NCBI GenBank assembly: GCA_029268305.1
Contig: JAJUGE010000002.1
Coordinates: 62,001 to 126,000, forward strand
Length of the DNA: 64,000 bases
Reading direction: 5' to 3'
From: Alphaproteobacteria bacterium
GTDB taxonomy: Bacteria > Pseudomonadota > Alphaproteobacteria > JAJUGE01
The notes below the pieces were generated by a model that was not told where the DNA came from, did not search any database, and saw only the letters and a program-made list of their open reading frames with translations. The position numbers and the translations under genes were made by a program. Below are positions 50,667 to 59,961 of the stretch, one piece after another (position 1 is the first letter of the stretch; every line of letters begins with the position of its first letter).

Positions 50667-51163
50667 AAGCTCCGTTTCGCCGGCCGCGGCTCCCGGCACC
50701 GCCCCTCTATCATCCAAGCAGCCTGATTGCGACCTGGTTCGGATCGGGGCACCTGCCGTGGGTGCCGGGAACCTGGGGTTCGCTGGTGGCGCTGCCGATT
50801 GCCTGGCTTCTGGTCGAGGCGGGCGGACGTCAGGTGCTCGCCGTGGCCGCCGTGCTCGCCTTCCTGCTGGGCTGCTGGGCTGCGGGCGCATACGAGCGGG
50901 CGACCGGAGGTCACGATCCCGGTCCGGTAGTGATCGACGAGGTGGCCGCGCAGTGGTGCGTCCTGCTAGTCGTTCCCACCGATATCGTGCTCTATATCGT
51001 CGGCTTCTTCCTGTTTCGGGCCGCCGACATTGTGAAGCCGTGGCCGGCCAGCGTGATCGATCGGCGTATGCAAGGTGGCATCGGCGTCATGCTCGACGAC
51101 GTCATTGCCGCGGCCTATGCAGCCGCAGCGTTGTATGCAATTTGGTGGGTGATCGGCACATGA
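50663..51163 (+). CDS. pgpA: Phosphatidylglycerophosphatase A
   Basis: A 166-aa membrane phosphatase making phosphatidylglycerol from its phosphate. The family signature [19 protein letters not shown] is followed by about three membrane helices and DEVAAQW and [12 protein letters not shown]. No ATG or GTG precedes the signature in frame; the only sensible start is TTG at 50663, which overlaps the ispDF stop (TTGA) and gives the normal length. That makes its translation dependent on ispDF. The stop overlaps the pncC ATG by 4 nt. Confidence 0.9.
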
Positions 51164-51666
51164 AGCTGTTTCCCGATGCACTGTTCGACCTCGCGCAGGA
51201 AACCATTCGGGATCTATTGCGCTCGCGCCGACGAATCACGACCGCTGAATCATGCACCGGTGGCCTGATCGCGGCCCTCCTGACCGAGGTGCCCGGCTCA
51301 TCGGACGTGCTCGGCCGCGGGTTCGTCACCTACTCGAACGAGGCGAAGGAGAAGGTGCTCGGCGTCTCGGGCAAGACTCTCCGCCAGTTCGGGGCGGTTA
51401 GCGTACAGACGGTTCGCGAGATGGCGGAAGGTGCGCTCGTCGCCGCGGATCACGATGCCAACATCGCGGTCGCGGTAAGTGGCGTCGCGGGTCCGGGCGG
51501 GGGCTCCGAGGAGAAGCCGGTCGGGACGGTGCACATCGCCGTCGCCGTGCGGGGCGCACGCACGACCGACGAGAAATTTCTGTTTTCTGGCGGCCGCACC
51601 GAGGTGCGGGTGGCGACGGTGCAGGAAGCGCTTCGGATGGTGCGAGAGCGAGCCTCGGAGGTCTGA
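51160..51666 (+). CDS. pncC: Nicotinamide-nucleotide amidase (CinA C-terminal domain protein)
   Basis: A 168-aa stand-alone CinA-C domain. [22 protein letters not shown] contains the catalytic Ser; [18 protein letters not shown] and [20 protein letters not shown] are the other two family signatures. PncC deamidates nicotinamide mononucleotide, feeding NAD salvage. The N-terminal COG1058 domain of full CinA is absent, which is common in alphaproteobacteria. Last gene of ispDF-pgpA-pncC; it converges on the enolase-superfamily gene with 11 bp between them. Confidence 0.93.
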
Positions 51667-51677
51667 CGGCCGTACTC

Positions 51678-52778
51678 TTAGCGAGACGCCTCGACCTTCC
51701 GCCAGTCGACCAGATCATGGAGACCGGTCGAAGGTGGAAGCGTCACGTGCCCGCTTGCGACCGCCAATGGAGCGGTGACGTACTCCTCGGCGAACTGGAA
51801 GTAGAACGTCTCTTCGCAAGGGAGATCGATGGCCCCGGAGGGGAGAGCACTCGCGAGCGAAAGGGCCACGACTGCGCCGAGCGAGGTGGTGGCTCCGAGG
51901 CCGACACAAACGCTGACTCCGGCCTCCTCGGCAGCGGCTGCGATATCGAGCGATTCCGTGATTCCGGACTTCGGCACCTTGACCGATATCGCCTCAGCCC
52001 CGGCATCGATGAAAAGTCGTGCCTGCTCGATGCTGCGGCAGGCGCCATCGACGAGAATCGGTACGGCGGAAGCTTCCTTGATGTGTCGGAACTCGCTCGA
52101 GGGCGAGAGCGGACAAGGATCTTCCGCGACCTCGACCCCGAACTCCGCAAGCATCTGCGTCGCACGGCCGACCTCGGCGGGCTCGCAAGCGCCGTTGAAG
52201 TCCGCATAGAGACGCAGGTCCGGCCCTACCGCGGCGCGGATTGCTCCGAGCGCGGCGCGATCCGTCGCCAGCCCCTGCCCCGTCTTCACCTTGAATGTCT
52301 CGAAGCCGTAGCGGACGCGCATGTCCTCCGCTTCGTGTGCCATGACGCGAGGCTCTGCCCGCGTGAGCGTCCAGGAAACCGGCACCGAATCGCCGCCGCC
52401 GCCGAGGTGCTGCCAGAGCGGGCGACCCGAGGCCTGGGCGCGGAGGTCCCAGCAGGCGGTATCGATCACCGATTTTGCGAGCGCATGCTCCGGCACCACG
52501 CGCAACGCGCGCGCCACCGCCTTCGGGTCGGCGAGATCGACCCCCTGCAAACGGGGCAGGAAAATCTCCTCCAGAACTACCGGCAGTGTCTTGGCGGTGG
52601 CGCCGGTCCAGTTGAGACGCAGCACTGCTTCGCCGACACCCATGAATCCGGCATCGGTCTCAAGAACGAGGAGGAGAAGGTCGACACCGTCTTCGGCGTG
52701 GTTGACCCATTGCACCGCGCGTCGGTAATGCAGGCGGATCGTGTGGATGCGGTGGCCGGTGAGCTTCAAGGAGGTCAT
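51678..52778 (-). CDS. Enolase-superfamily enzyme, mandelate racemase/muconate-lactonizing type
   Basis: A 366-aa enzyme. The N-terminal capping domain is followed by a barrel with the KxK motif in TFKVKTG (163-165), metal ligands Asp193 (YADFNGA), Glu219 (VAEDPC) and Asp244 (LVDGAC), and a lysine at about 267 in SVKVPKSG. A Lys on each side of the active site marks the MLE subgroup: cycloisomerases, dipeptide epimerases, o-succinylbenzoate synthases and racemases. The ATG overlaps the coq10 stop by 4 nt. No menaquinone or aromatic-degradation genes are adjacent, so the reaction is unknown. Confidence 0.88.
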   Translation of the reverse strand: MTSLKLTGHRIHTIRLHYRRAVQWVNHAEDGVDLLLLVLETDAGFMGVGEAVLRLNWTGATAKTLPVVLEEIFLPRLQGVDLADPKAVARALRVVPEHALAKSVIDTACWDLRAQASGRPLWQHLGGGGDSVPVSWTLTRAEPRVMAHEAEDMRVRYGFETFKVKTGQGLATDRAALGAIRAAVGPDLRLYADFNGACEPAEVGRATQMLAEFGVEVAEDPCPLSPSSEFRHIKEASAVPILVDGACRSIEQARLFIDAGAEAISVKVPKSGITESLDIAAAAEEAGVSVCVGLGATTSLGAVVALSLASALPSGAIDLPCEETFYFQFAEEYVTAPLAVASGHVTLPPSTGLHDLVDWRKVEASR

Positions 52779-53260
52779 CCCAGGCCAGGGTGATTTTGTG
52801 CCTGGCTCTCCTGGCCTTCGGGTGCCGGCAGCGGCTCGTACATCTGATGCGCTCTCGCCTCGAATGCCGCGACCATGCGCCGGACGGCTTCGTTGAACAG
52901 CGCGCCGATGAGCTTCTGCAGGATGGCGGAGCGAAACTCGAAATCGACGTAAAAGTCGATAACGCATCCGCCCGGAACAGCCTCGAAAATCCAGTGATTA
53001 TTCAGATAGCGAAGCGGCCCTTGGGTATAGGCCACATCGACTCGGTGGGGCCTGCTCAACTCGACGCGAGACGTGAACCGCTCGCGAATCATCTTGAAGC
53101 CGATGATCAGGTCGGCGATCAGAACATTGCCTTCCCGGCTCCTCACTCTGGCGCCTACGCACCAGGGCAGAAACTCCGGATAGCGCTCGACATCCGCCAC
53201 CAGGTCGAACAACTGCTCGGGCTTGTAGGGAAGAAAGCGACGTTCTGCGTGTGTGGGCAT
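52775..53260 (-). CDS. coq10: Coenzyme Q-binding COQ10-family START-domain protein
   Basis: A 161-aa START/polyketide-cyclase fold protein. The N-terminus MPTHAERRFLPYKPEQLFDL and WCVGARVRSREGN are typical of COQ10/RatA-like proteins; FKMIRERFTSRV and LNNHWIFEAVPGG follow. In mitochondria and alphaproteobacteria COQ10 carries ubiquinone to respiratory complexes. It lies 15 nt after lipA, its normal position. The C-terminal tail is short and polar. Coupled by ATGA to the MR/MLE gene. Confidence 0.92.
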   Translation of the reverse strand: MPTHAERRFLPYKPEQLFDLVADVERYPEFLPWCVGARVRSREGNVLIADLIIGFKMIRERFTSRVELSRPHRVDVAYTQGPLRYLNNHWIFEAVPGGCVIDFYVDFEFRSAILQKLIGALFNEAVRRMVAAFEARAHQMYEPLPAPEGQESQAQNHPGLG

Positions 53261-53275
53261 GAAAGATCCTGAAGG

Positions 53276-54289
53276 TCACCCGGCGGCCGCCAGCCGCGCC
53301 TCTCGGGCCGCACGCAGCTTCTCGAAGTCTTCGCCGGCATGATAGGAGGAGCGGGTGAGCGGCGAGGACGAAACCATCAGGAAGCCTTTGCCGTACGCCA
53401 TCTTCTCGTATGACCTGAACTCTTCCGGCGTGACGAACCGGTCCACCGGATGGTGCTTGCGGGTCGGCTGCAGGTATTGCCCGATCGTCAGAAAATCGAC
53501 ATCGGCCGCCCGCAGATCATCCATTACCTGCTGCAGATCCTGACGGGTTTCGCCGAGCCCCACCATCAGCCCCGACTTGGTGAAGAGCGACGGATCGAGC
53601 TCCTTCGCCCGGTCGAGCAACCTCAGGCTGGCGTAATACCGCGCGCCGGGCCGTACTTCCGGATAGAGCTTCGGTACCGTCTCCAGATTGTGGTTGAAAA
53701 CGTCAGGCCGGGCCTCCACGACGGTTTCGAGTGCGCCCGGCTTGCGCAGGAAATCCGGCGTCAGTACCTCGATCGTGGTCTGTGGCGATTGCGCCCTGAT
53801 CTTCCTGATCACCTTCGCGAACTGTCCGGCGCCGCCGTCTTCGAGGTCGTCCCGGTCGACGGAGGTGATCACGACATGCTCGAGACCGAGCTCAGCGACC
53901 GCCCGTGCGACATTGTCCGGCTCGTGCGGGTCGAGCCGGTCCGGCCGGCCGGTCGCGACGTTGCAAAATGCGCACGCCCGGGTACAAACGGAGCCCAGGA
54001 TCATCATGGTGGCGTGCCGCTTCGCCCAACACTCGCCGATGTTGGGGCAGCCCGCCTCTTCACACACGGTCGCGAGCTTGTTTTCGCGGACGATCCGGCG
54101 CGTCTCCTGATATTCACGCGACGTGGGGGCCTTTACCCGGATCCAGGGCGGCTTGCGCATTACCGGACTTTCGGGGCGGTTCACCTTCTCGGGATGGCGA
54201 ACGCTGCGCAAGTGGGCGGACCCGACGGTTTGTAATGTAGACCGTACGTCCGCCTCGTCTGGATCGACTGAAATCATCCGTTCCGTCAT
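53276..54289 (-). CDS. lipA: Lipoyl synthase
   Basis: A 337-aa radical SAM enzyme that inserts two sulfurs into octanoyl groups on lipoyl domains. The auxiliary cluster cysteines are [12 protein letters not shown]; the radical SAM motif is [10 protein letters not shown]; the C-terminal [10 protein letters not shown] supplies the serine ligand of the auxiliary cluster. It sits 3 nt after lpdA, next to the pyruvate dehydrogenase genes whose E2 and E1-beta lipoyl domains it would modify. lipB is not in the window. Confidence 0.97.
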
Positions 54290-54292
54290 GGC

Positions 54293-55693
54293 CTAGAAAT
54301 GTATGGCCCGGCCATAAGCGTCAAGCACGGACTCGTGCATCATCTCTGACAGTGTCGGGTGCGGGAACACCGTGTGCATCAGCTCGGCTTCGGTGGTTTC
54401 CAGATTCCTGGCGATGACGTATCCCTGGATCAGCTCCGTCACCTCGGCACCGACCATGTGCGCGCCGAGGAACTCTCCGGTCTCAGCATCGAATACTGTC
54501 TTGACCATGCCCTCGGGCTCACCGAGCGCAATGGCTTTGCCGTTGCCGATATAGGGGAAGCGACCGACCTTCACTTCATGTCCGGCTTCTTTGGCGGCTG
54601 CTTCGGTGAGCCCGACGCTCGCGATCTGCGGCCGGCAGTAGGTGCAGCCGGGAATCCGGGTGACGTCCAGCGGGTGGACACCCTTTATCCCTGCGATCCG
54701 CTCGACGCACAGGACGCCCTCGTGGCTCGCCTTGTGGGCCAGCCACGGCGGCCCGACCACGTCACCGATTGCGTAGATACCGTCCTCGCCGGTGCGCAGC
54801 CACTCGTCGACCTCGATGTGGCCGCGGTCGAGCTTTATCTTCGTGTTCTCGATGCCGATATCCTCGACGTTGGCGGTGATTCCGACAGCGAGGATCACGC
54901 GATCAACTGTGATTTGCTCCGCTTTGTCGCCGGTGACGATCTCGGCGGAGACACTATCGCCGTTCGCTTTCACCTTCCGGACTTCGGCGCCCGTACGGAT
55001 CTGTATCCCCTGCTTCTCGAAGGCCTTGCGGGCGAATGCCGAAATTTCTTCATCCTCGGCGGGAAGGATGCGGTCGACGACTTCGGCAACCGTTACCTCG
55101 GCTCCCATGTCACGATAGAAGCTGGCGAACTCCATGCCGATTGCGCCGGAGCCGATCACGAGCAGTGACGCCGGCATGCTTTCCGGGACCATGGCCTCCC
55201 GGTAGGTCCACACGAGCTTCCCGTCGGGCTCGATGCCCGGGAGCGTGCGCGCTCGGGCGCCGGTCGCCAGAATGATGTGGCCGGCGCTGAGTTCCTCGGA
55301 CTTGCCGCTCTTGTCCTCGACCGTGACCTTGCCCTTCCCCCCGAGCCGGCCGTGCCCCTTGTGGACCGTCACCTTGTTCTTCCTGAGAAGGTGCTCGACG
55401 CCGGCCGAGAGCTGCTTGGCTACATTCCTCGACCGCTTCACCACTTTCGCAATATCGAACGATATGTCCTTGGCCGATAGGCCAAAGGCGTCGAGCTCGT
55501 TCAGAATGTGGCGGATTTCGGAGGTGCGAAGCAGCGCCTTCGTCGGGATGCATCCCCAGTTGAGGCAGATCCCGCCGAGATGCTCGCGCTCGATAACGGC
55601 CGTCTTCATGCCGAGCTGTGCAGCTCGGATCGCCGCGACGTAGCCGCCCGGCCCCCCTCCGACGACGATCAGATCATAGCTCGTGTCCGCCAC
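54293..55693 (-). CDS. lpdA: Dihydrolipoyl dehydrogenase (E3)
   Basis: A 466-aa FAD/NAD flavoenzyme that reoxidises dihydrolipoyl groups. FAD motif VVGGGPGGYVAAIRAAQ, redox disulfide GGICLNWGCIPTKALL, NAD motif VIGSGAIGMEFASFY and the C-terminal HTVFPHPTLSE with the catalytic His-Glu pair. No N-terminal lipoyl domain is attached, in contrast to some bacteria. It lies between pdhC and lipA. Confidence 0.97.
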   Translation of the reverse strand: MADTSYDLIVVGGGPGGYVAAIRAAQLGMKTAVIEREHLGGICLNWGCIPTKALLRTSEIRHILNELDAFGLSAKDISFDIAKVVKRSRNVAKQLSAGVEHLLRKNKVTVHKGHGRLGGKGKVTVEDKSGKSEELSAGHIILATGARARTLPGIEPDGKLVWTYREAMVPESMPASLLVIGSGAIGMEFASFYRDMGAEVTVAEVVDRILPAEDEEISAFARKAFEKQGIQIRTGAEVRKVKANGDSVSAEIVTGDKAEQITVDRVILAVGITANVEDIGIENTKIKLDRGHIEVDEWLRTGEDGIYAIGDVVGPPWLAHKASHEGVLCVERIAGIKGVHPLDVTRIPGCTYCRPQIASVGLTEAAAKEAGHEVKVGRFPYIGNGKAIALGEPEGMVKTVFDAETGEFLGAHMVGAEVTELIQGYVIARNLETTEAELMHTVFPHPTLSEMMHESVLDAYGRAIHF

Positions 55694-55735: not shown

Positions 55736-57229
55736 TCAGAAGAGCATCGCCGCGGGAAACTCGATTAGCGACTTGAAAGCACCGAGAAGCTCCGCGCCGA
55801 TCGCACCATCGACCACGCGATGATCGCAGGAAAGCGTACAGGTCATCAGGTTTGCTACCTCCAGCTTGCCTTCTCTCACGATCGGCCGCTGCTCGCTAGC
55901 ACCGATCGCGAGGATGCACGACTGAGGCGGATTGATGACGGCGTCGAACTGCTTGATTCCGTACATCCCGAGGTTGGAGATGCTGACGGTGCCGCCCTGA
56001 TACTCCTCCGGCTTCAGCTTCCCGTCCCTCGCGCGCGCCGCCAGGTCCCGCATCTCCGCCGATATGGCTGCCAACCCCTTCTGGTCGGCATTGCGGACCA
56101 CAGGTGTGATCAAACCGCCCTCGATCGCGACCGCGACCGAGACGTCGACCGATCGATATTTGAGAAGGCCTTCTTCGCTCCACGAGGCATTGGCGGCGGG
56201 AACCCTCCGCATCGCCAGAGCGAGAGCCTTGATGACGAAATCATTGATCGACAGCTTTACACCTTCTGGCGCCCGCGAGTTCATTTCCGCACGAACGCGA
56301 ACGAGTTCGTCTACCTCGCAATCGACCGTCAGATAGAAATGCGGGATCGTCTGTTTCGCCTCGGTCAGGCGCCGCGCGATGATCTTCCGCATCGAGGAAT
56401 GCGGCACGAGGTCGTATTCCGGCAGCCCCGGCTGCTCCGTCGGCGCGATTGCAGGTTGCGCCGTCGGGGAAGCCGCTCGCTCCGCCTCCTTGGGAACGCG
56501 CACGCCCTCCTTCTTCGCCTTCTCGACATCGCTCTTGACGATCCTGCCGTGCGGACCGCTTCCCTCGATCGCTTCAAGCGGGATACCCGCCTCGGTCGCC
56601 AGCCGGCGCGCGAGCGGACTCGCGAAGATCCTGCCATTACCGCCTGTCGCAGACGCCCCATTCCCACGAGATGCCGCCTGGGGTTCGCCGCTGCCGCTTC
56701 TGAGGGCTTCGATGTCCGCCTTCACGATTTTACCGCCGGGCCCGGAACCGGCGACGCCCGACAGATCGATACCGGCCTGGCGCGCCATCCGGGCCGCCAG
56801 CGGGGTTGCCTTGGCATCCGAAGTAGCCCCAGTCGGATCTGGCGCTTCTCCACCAGATGGCTTTGCTCTTGCCGGTGACTCGTCGCTTTCCCGACCCTCC
56901 GGTTCATCCGGCTCCTCGGCTGTCTCGGTCGGCTGCGGCCCCTTCTCCTGATCGACTGCCGCGTCATCCAACGCGCTCGAATCTTCCCCTTCTTCGAGAA
57001 GGATCGCGATCACGGAGTTTACCGCCACGCCTTCGGTGCCTTCGGGCACCACGATCTTGCCGACGACGCCCTCGTCGACAGCCTCGACCTCCATCGTCGC
57101 CTTGTCCGTTTCGATTTCCGCGACGACATCGCCGGCGCGCACCTCGTCTCCCTCCTTCACATTCCACTTCACGAGGGTGCCCTCGGTCATGGTGGGAGAC
57201 AGAGCCGGCATCAGGATATTGGTCGACAT
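55736..57229 (-). CDS. pdhC: Pyruvate dehydrogenase E2 (dihydrolipoyl acetyltransferase) with two E3-binding domains
   Basis: A 497-aa core subunit. The lipoyl domain is at 1-78 with Lys43 in ETDKATMEV. An acidic linker (about 85-135) follows. Then come two separate peripheral subunit-binding domains: [13 protein letters not shown]...[12 protein letters not shown] at 141-176 and [13 protein letters not shown]...[12 protein letters not shown] at 203-237. Usually there is one. The catalytic domain has [11 protein letters not shown] and [15 protein letters not shown] lies upstream of the ATG; an open extension of 51 codons overlaps pdhB and is rejected. Confidence 0.95.
56996..57229 (-). repeat. 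Lipoyl-domain coding repeat, copy in pdhC
   Basis: The first 78 codons of pdhC closely match those of pdhB (58485-58718) in protein and DNA. Shared peptide blocks include [23 protein letters not shown] and [18 protein letters not shown]. Exact DNA identity exceeds 20 bp in places. This is a domain duplication, possibly kept similar by gene conversion. Confidence 0.75.
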
Positions 57230-57281
57230 CGGCGGGTCCTCGGAGATCGTCGTGGAAGGAAAGCCGGCTCCGTAGCTCGGG

Positions 57282-58718
57282 TCACCGATAGCAGACGGCT
57301 TTGGCTGCGTTGACGATCGTTTCCGGTTGCGGAAGCGCGAGCTTCTCGAGGTTGGCCGCGTAGGGCAACGGAACGTCCACACCGGTCACGCGCGTTACCG
57401 GTGCGTCGAGATAATCGAACGCTTCTTCCATCATCACGGCCGCAAGCTCGGAGCCGATTCCGGCAAAGGGCCACCCTTCCTCGACGCTGACGAGCCGATT
57501 GGTCTTCTTCACGGACTCCACCACCGTTTCCCGGTCCAGCGGCCGGATGGTCCGGAGGTCTATTACCTCGGCTTCTATGCCTTCTTTCGCCAGTTCCTCG
57601 GCGGCGGCAAGCGCATGGTGGCACATCAGCGAAAATGCAGTGATGGTGACGTCCGTGCCTTCGCGGAGAACCCGTGCCCGGCCGATCGGAACGGTGAAGT
57701 CCGGGTCGGTCGGAACCTCGAAGCTGTAGCCGTAGAGAATCTCGTTCTCGAGGAAGATCACCGGGTTCGGGTCGCGAATCGCCGATTTCAGCAGTCCCTT
57801 GGCATCCGCCGCCGAGTAGGGGGCCACGACAATCAGTCCCGGGCAGTGCGCATACCAGCTGGCATAGCACTGAGAGTGCTGGGCCGCGACGCGTGCCGCT
57901 GCGCCATTCGGGCCACGAAACACGATCGGGCAGCCCATCTGCCCGCCTGACATATAAAGGGTCTTCGCGGCGGAATTGACGATCTGGTCGATCGCCTGCA
58001 TGGCGAAGTTGAACGTCATGAACTCGATGATCGGGCGCAGTCCGGCGAATGCCGCGCCGACGCCCAGCCCGGCGAACGCATGCTCGGTGATAGGCGTGTC
58101 CACCACGCGACGCGCCCCGAACTCGTCCAGCAAGCCCTGACTGACCTTGTACGCGCCCTGATACTCGGCAACCTCTTCCCCCATGAGGAATACCGATTCG
58201 TCCCGGCGCATCTCCTCGGCCATGGCATCACGCAACGCTTCGCGAACCGTGATCTTCGTCGTTTCGCCCCAAGCCGCTTCGTCTTCCGCCGGCGCTCGCC
58301 GTTGCGGCGGAGGCGCCACCGCCGCCTGGCGCGCGGGCCTCTCGCGCTCTTTTGCGCTCTCTTCCTGCGCGTCGGCCGATTGATCCGGTTGAGAGGCGCC
58401 GTTGCCCCGGTCTCGTTTCGGCTCCGCGTCCGGGGCTGCCTTGTCGACGGCCTCGTCGAGGGCGCTGGCATCTTCATCCTCACCGAGGAGAAGCGCGATC
58501 GGCGTGTTCACCGCCACGCCTTCGCTGCCCTCTTCGACCAGCAGCCGACCGAGACGACCCTCGTCGACCGCTTCGACCTCCATCGTCGCCTTGTCGGTCT
58601 CGATCTCGGCGATCACATCGCCCGCTCGTACCTCGTCGCCCTCCTTCTTCAGCCACTTGGCGAGCTTACCTTCCGTCATGGTCGGCGACAGGGCCGGCAT
58701 GAGCACTTCGATCGGCAT
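57282..58718 (-). CDS. pdhB: Pyruvate dehydrogenase E1 beta with N-terminal lipoyl domain
   Basis: A 478-aa subunit. Residues 1-78 form a lipoyl domain (Lys42 in ETDKATMEV), and a charged Ala/Pro-rich linker runs to about 150. The transketolase-like domain then starts with [17 protein letters not shown] and includes [17 protein letters not shown], the pyrimidine-binding region, and the C-terminal domain from about 345. An E1-beta with its own lipoyl domain is a known alphaproteobacterial feature. The lipoyl domain is almost identical to that of pdhC. Starts 31 nt after pdhA. Confidence 0.96.
58485..58718 (-). repeat. Lipoyl-domain coding repeat, copy in pdhB
   Basis: Partner of the pdhC copy at 56996-57229. 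Both encode a complete lipoyl domain with the target lysine in ETDKATMEV. Divergence is concentrated at the surface strand after the lysine hairpin. Confidence 0.75.
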
Positions 58719-58749: not shown

Positions 58750-59823
58750 TCAGGCTTCCGCGAGCACGTCGGTGTAGAGCTCGGACGGATCCGGCTCGGG
58801 GCTGTTGCGGGCGAACTCCTCCGCTTCGGAGACGATCTGCTTGATGTTGCCGTCGATCTCCTTCAACGCGGCTTCGTCCACGACCCCGGCCTCCAGAAGG
58901 CGTTCCCGGTAATGGTCGATCGGATCGCGTTCCGCCCTCATCTTGTTCACCTCGTCGCGCGAACGGTATTTGGCCGGGTCGGACATGGAATGGCCGCGAT
59001 AGCGGTAGGTTTCCATCTCAAGGATGATCGGCCCCTTGGTGCGCGCGTGCTCGACCGCGGCGTCGCCGGCCTTTCGCACCGCCAGAACATCCATGCCGTC
59101 GACAGCTTCGCCAGGAATGCCATAGCCGGCGCCGCGCTTGTGCAGCCCCTCGCCGGCCGCGGCACGCGCAACTGACGTCCCCATGCCGTACCTGTTATTC
59201 TCGATGATGAAGACGATCGGCAGCGACCAGAGCGCTGCCATGTTCATCGTTTCGGCCACCTGCCCCTGATTCGCGGCGCCGTCCCCATAATAGGTGAGGC
59301 TGACATTGTCGGTGCCGTTGTATTTATGAGCAAAGGCGAGCCCCGCCCCGATCGGCACCTGGGCGCCGACGATGCCGTGCCCGCCGAAGAAGTTCTTCTC
59401 GCGGCTGAACATGTGCATCGAGCCGCCCTTCCCCTTCGAGTACCCGCCGCGCCGGCCGGTCAACTCAGCCATTACTCCTTTCGGATCCATACCGGTGGCC
59501 AGCATATGCCCATGGTCGCGATACCCGGTGATAACGGTGTCGCCCTCCCGGATCGCCGCCTGCATGCCGACCACAACCGCTTCCTGGCCGATGTAGAGAT
59601 GGCAGAAGCCGCCGATGAGGCCCATTCCGTAGAGCTGTCCGGCCTTCTCCTCGAATCGCCGGATCAGAAGCATGTCACGGTAGTAGCCGATCAGCTCGTC
59701 CCGGTCGCCGGAGAGCGCATCGTCTCGCCGCTTTCGGCCTTTCGGCTTCGTAGCTGCCGCTCCAGACGCCTTGCTCGAAGCACTGGCGGACCGCTTCGAT
59801 GCGGTTCTCGTCCGCGTCGCCAT
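58750..59823 (-). CDS. pdhA: Pyruvate dehydrogenase E1 alpha
   Basis: A 357-aa thiamine-diphosphate enzyme subunit that decarboxylates pyruvate. After a Lys/Ala/Ser-rich N-terminal arm of about 40 residues comes [20 protein letters not shown]. The ThDP motif [31 protein letters not shown] and the phosphorylation-loop-like [15 protein letters not shown] are present. GGGGAGAG precedes the ATG at 59823. The open extension to 59910 crosses the putative promoter and is excluded. First gene of pdhABC-lpdA-lipA. Confidence 0.96.
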
Positions 59824-59878
59824 GATCTCTCCCCGCTGTGCCGGATCCCAGCCGATGGCTGAAACACGAACGCTCTGA

Positions 59879-59907
59879 TTGGTACCGCGTTCCTGACGCG
59901 GATTCAA
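59879..59907 (-). promoter_or_regulatory. Candidate pdhA promoter with an inverted repeat filling the spacer
   Basis: On the minus strand TTGAAT (59907-59902) and TACCAA (59884-59879) are separated by exactly 17 bp, and those 17 bp are CCGCGT-CAGGA-ACGCGG, a perfect 6-bp inverted repeat. The hexamers are weak, but a repeat exactly within the spacer would be an ideal operator. The leader to the pdhA ATG would be about 50 nt. Confidence 0.4.
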
Positions 59908-59961
59908 CACTGGCTAATATATTGAAACAGCGACAGAAATCGTCTATTAACTAGATTATGG

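Follow-up and report, generated by a model that had tools for sequence, protein, structure and literature searches.

Does the tight coupling of an MR/MLE-type enolase-superfamily gene to a coq10-type gene, at the end of a pdh-lipA operon, tell us anything about a shared function of the two products? The question arises in the window (the whole stretch of 64,000 nucleotides analysed here), where the interval 51678-53260 consists of two minus-strand genes, one MR/MLE-type and one coq10-type. Our answer, to which we give a probability of about 0.8, is that the gene encodes a catabolic-type enzyme of the MLE subgroup which was inserted between coq10 and pncC, with no sign of a link to ubiquinone or lipoate. 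The result is thus mainly a negative one: that a gene overlaps a housekeeping gene tightly, by ATGA, is no evidence that the two share a function. The features of the locus are (coordinates, strand, description, and basis where recorded):

51160..51666, plus strand, pncC/CinA C-terminal-type gene, convergent (ORF, Pfam, NCBIfam)
51678..52778, minus strand, MR/MLE-type enolase-superfamily enzyme, 366 aa plus stop (ORF, Pfam, NCBIfam, alignment)
52775..52778, minus strand, ATGA made up of the coq10 TGA stop and the MR/MLE ATG start (sequence)
52775..53260, minus strand, coq10/RatA-type protein (Polyketide_cyc), 161 aa plus stop (ORF, Pfam, alignment)
53276..54289, minus strand, lipA, lipoyl synthase (ORF, Pfam, NCBIfam)
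54293..55693, minus strand, lpd, dihydrolipoamide dehydrogenase (E3)
55736..57382, minus strand, pdhC, E2 acyltransferase (mechanical ORF, real start probably more internal)
57282..58718, minus strand, pdhB, E1 beta with lipoyl domain
58750..59910, minus strand, pdhA, E1 alpha (mechanical ORF)

The MR/MLE gene comes last after pdhA-pdhB-pdhC-lpd-lipA-coq10, at the end of the pdh-lipA operon as a preceding sequence-only reading of this DNA had claimed, and the overlap of its ATG with the coq10 stop, also described there, is indeed seen in the sequence (junction GGATGACC, with ATGA common to both genes). The mechanical ORF of the gene starts upstream of this ATG, at 52967; as homologues from other genomes align with the protein only from about the ATG at 52778, the overlapping ATG is the likely start. 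Translation of the MR/MLE gene is probably coupled to that of coq10 through the ATGA. The overlap itself is ordinary and its kind is frequent in the window: exactly 4 bp are shared in 5 of the 41 adjacent same-strand pairs among the mechanical gene calls. A second ATGA stop/start, between pgpA and pncC, lies at 51160-51163 on the plus strand and was missed by the mechanical calls. On the strand opposite the MR/MLE gene a Shine-Dalgarno-like AAGGAGG run is found at 52768-52774 (plus strand), inside the first MR/MLE codons; its position opposite the start is probably a coincidence. A scan of 51500-54400 returned neither promoters nor terminators, but as shuffled sequence would be expected to give just 0.1 and 1.6, respectively, this negative carries little weight. 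The partner protein has an ordinary length and a tail that varies among the eight sequences aligned; with the NCBIfam RatA model it scores 92.1 of 258 bits, i.e. under the cut-off; in calling it coq10 we keep the name given earlier, which we take to be the usual convention.

On the other side of the MR/MLE gene the convergent pncC follows, the two stops being 11 bp apart. The window has the same genes in the same order as the convergent alphaproteobacterial arrangement lpd-lipA-coq10/pncC-pgpA-ispDF, but contains one extra gene, MR/MLE, between coq10 and pncC. For a comparison of this junction we used 59 relatives including the genome of the window, none of the others being of the same genus. 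coq10 matches were found in 47 of the 59 (46 without the own genome) and MR/MLE matches with E up to 0.001 in 31 (30 without it; for genome G057 34 of 40 candidates were scored). Thirty coq10 loci, the own and 29 others, were compared over about 1.4–1.5 kb beyond coq10. The sequence-only reading had proposed that a stable coupling might mark a new side reaction, and the pairing did not turn out to be conserved: in tblastn searches with seven window proteins (E up to 1e-6) the MR/MLE gene stood beside coq10 in none of the 29 other loci, so that within the sample the overlap is seen in its own genome only. The nearest other coq10/MR/MLE pair lies about 60 kb apart on contig C4 of genome G001 (judged by eye among pairs sharing a contig in 58 relatives), and assemblies in many contigs may conceal neighbours. 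G001 is the only other genome of the family/order in the sample; its coq10 locus lacks the MR/MLE gene, and a DUF6134 gene converges on coq10 instead. This absence does not date the insertion.

coq10 and pncC lie tail to tail in 12 of the 29 other loci, with a gap of at most 135 bp or overlapping (large negative gaps in L047 and L069 reflect an in-frame stop inside the matched stretch). In 6 of the 29 pncC is 508–1015 bp away from coq10, and in the remaining 11 it was not found within about 1.4–1.5 kb past coq10. Five of the six wider slots (L043, L050, L055, L062, L063) are filled with recognisable genes unrelated to MR/MLE: a response regulator, two Rce1-like proteases (L050 and L055), an Asp/Glu racemase-family protein and a thioesterase; in the sixth (L068) no gene was recognised. 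Different unrelated genes occupy the slot across alphaproteobacterial genomes, and the junction looks like a permissive operon end.

The sequence-only reading had also raised a recent insertion between coq10 and pncC. The insertion agrees with the tail-to-tail neighbours in 12 of the 29 other loci, but codon usage and GC3 are native-like and give no support to its being recent. The codon log-likelihood of the MR/MLE gene is −1.044 compared with −1.027 on average (sd 0.083) in 50 other window genes, 23 of which score lower, and its GC3 is 0.771 compared with 0.782 (sd 0.052; 21 of 50 lower). In composition the gene matches the window, so either it is no recent arrival or its source was a genome of similar make-up. 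At the edges of the insertion only short, imperfect repeats of up to 26 nt occur, and no transposon signature was found there. We infer an insertion rather than repeated loss: the gene would have entered where the convergent coq10 and pncC meet with their 3′ ends, and would now terminate the pdh-lpd-lipA-coq10 operon, with which it is presumably co-transcribed.

Judged from its sequence, the protein clearly belongs to the MR/MLE family, with both Pfam domains over their cut-offs (MR_MLE_C, PF13378, 129.8 bits with a cut-off of 29.4; MR_MLE_N, PF02746, 40 bits with a cut-off of 22). In a four-sequence alignment of the window protein with L011, L081 and L085 the positions K163, K165, D193, N195, E219, D244 and K267 are invariant, and the same seven are kept in L082, L083 and L084. 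These include what we take, for the MLE subgroup, to be the metal ligands (D193, E219 and D244) and the active-site lysines, with the KxK motif K163/K165 presumably on one side and K267 on the other. The earlier statement that all metal ligands and both lysines are present is borne out at the level of predicted positions. The best match among proteins of solved structure is the dipeptide epimerase 3jva (E 1.1e-34), with whose D, E and D the three acidic positions align, and the muconate cycloisomerase 3dg3 matches with E 5.4e-33; KxK, D, E, D and K align in both. Enzymes of this superfamily remove the proton alpha to a carboxylate. By the same chemistry the window protein would stabilise the resulting enediolate by a metal ion coordinated by D193, E219 and D244, K165 and K267 would act as bases, and the product would be a racemised, epimerised or cyclo-isomerised acid.

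Which acid this might be does not follow from the family models. None of the 16 matched NCBIfam models reaches its curated cut-off; the best, for muconate/chloromuconate cycloisomerase (TIGR02534), gives 137.3 bits with a cut-off of 334.95. The models for L-Ala-D/L-Glu epimerase, DgcA racemase and cis-3-hydroxy-L-proline dehydratase likewise stay below theirs (NF041118, 66.9 of 500; NF011708, 67.2 of 343; NF042940, 87.9 of 400; NF043002, 80.6 of 500). With every match far under its cut-off, no reaction can be assigned. For the barrel fold with an N-terminal capping domain that is expected of the subgroup, AlphaFold2, with the window protein and L011 as its only two rows, gave a model of mean pLDDT 46.2, on which nothing here relies.

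Close homologues were few in the genomes searched. A class-wide search of 385 genomes gave five matches, including the own, at E up to 1e-35, and a phylum-wide search of 398 genomes gave the own alone at E up to 1e-40 (at most five best candidates scored per genome in both; the two sets partly overlap). The search of genome contigs returned one relative, L011 (49%), and a plasmid collection 817 records, all below 60% identity, with 31.4% in the top-ranked row. At 45% identity or more the searches gave just L011 (49%) and L081 (45%), and in the tree these form a supported clade with the window protein (99/100); L082, L083, L084 and L085 are 27–32% identical to it and fall on two separate branches. 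For the tree, row ownpar_L002 was disregarded (671 aa, a wrongly picked ORF) and the paralogues L005, L009 and L010 were left out. The clade is one among many MR/MLE enzymes without an assigned substrate.

The neighbourhoods of these six homologues were the other point on which the proposed side reaction depended, and they too point elsewhere: the loci lie mostly beside transport or catabolic genes, and no match to coq10, lipA, lpd, pncC, pgpA or ispDF was found in any of them (E up to 1e-4; 7.5–17.5 kb). L011 is accompanied by a MarR regulator, an enoyl-CoA hydratase, an acyl-CoA ligase-type protein, a cupin, an Asp/Glu racemase-family protein, an FAD protein and three TctC-type receptors, two over the cut-off and one under it, the latter directly before MR/MLE. 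Around L081 we found a gamma-glutamyltranspeptidase, two SDRs, two 2-hydroxyacid dehydrogenases, an ornithine cyclodeaminase-type protein, an aldehyde dehydrogenase and one protein without a Pfam match. This cluster comes after a block reading as lspA-ileS-ribF (names by eye), so the second relative also lies near housekeeping genes. In L082 and L084 MR/MLE is directly followed by TctC-TctB-TctA, a tripartite tricarboxylate transporter. The direct neighbours in L083 are not catabolic enzymes but a PGA_cap (capsule-type) protein and an ABC permease; TctA is found about 5 kb from there, as is a TctC that narrowly misses its cut-off. L085 adjoins UbiD-type, Glyoxalase and Amidohydrolase genes. 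Since the relatives keep company with transport and breakdown genes of an unrelated kind, the pairing with coq10 looks incidental. The mixed company of L081 and L083 slightly lowers our confidence in the main reading. Two observations had been named at the outset as telling against a side reaction, an overlap unique to this genome and homologues mostly beside unrelated catabolic genes, and in our sample this is largely what is seen. The window copy itself has no catabolic neighbours; its role here could therefore have changed.

A similar setting has been described for AMDase genes: according to that study (PMC4996985), an MR/MLE gene is present in 61% of the available AMDase neighbourhoods, together with TTT genes. 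L011, L082, L083 and L084 are likewise near TTT-family genes, whereas the window gene has no TTT neighbour. The Asp/Glu-racemase-family neighbour of L011 lacks, by eye, the GTS and SCG motifs given for AMDase in that study. For this reason, and because the window gene has no gene of this type next to it, we dropped the idea of an AMDase pathway. At the level of titles and abstract openings, a literature search found no link between coq10 and MR/MLE.

The same observations bear on the other ways in which the locus might be explained. Native-like codon usage, intact catalytic positions and the 4-bp overlap speak for a kept and probably expressed gene, as would be expected had it taken on a housekeeping side reaction (of PDH, lipoate or ubiquinone), with the ATGA matching its output to that of the coq10-type protein. 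However, the pair is missing at 29 other coq10 loci and in G001, the homologue loci are without coq10 or lipA, and overlaps of this length are frequent in the window, which makes such a recruitment highly improbable. A further reading, in which the window protein belongs with L011 and L081 to a small, unnamed MLE-subgroup clade with an uncharacterised carboxylate reaction, and in which the gene has in this lineage come under the PDH/lipoate/coq10 operon to serve central metabolism and not a catabolic pathway, we also consider very unlikely.

As no genome compared other than its own has the gene at this place, and unrelated genes fill the slot elsewhere, it might also be a passive passenger with little current function here. 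This seems unlikely in view of its full-length frame, its retained catalytic residues and its window-like codon usage. An assembly error that wrongly joined MR/MLE to coq10 is hardly credible, even for a draft genome of 226 contigs (91.85% complete): coq10 and pncC, each other's usual partners, stand on either side, the contig measures 134 kb and the composition matches. Indeed, a chimera is improbable because its far side would hardly regain the usual partner. We thus retain the reading of an inserted MLE-subgroup enzyme of the catabolic kind.

The genome of the window contains ten MR/MLE matches (window gene included) and 11 TctC receptor matches, located on contigs C31, C9, C6, C175, C27, C17, C3, C5 and C66. 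The FAD protein of the L011 locus has own-genome homologues of 44, 39 and 39% on contigs C45, C59 and C3; as they sit on other contigs, they do not indicate an L011-like cluster around the window gene. In genome G113, the stretch L085:5893-8562 carries a second MR/MLE gene, about 29% identical to the query, that adjoins a UbiD-type decarboxylase gene with Glyoxalase-family genes nearby; this MR/MLE-UbiD neighbourhood perhaps belongs to an aromatic-acid pathway.
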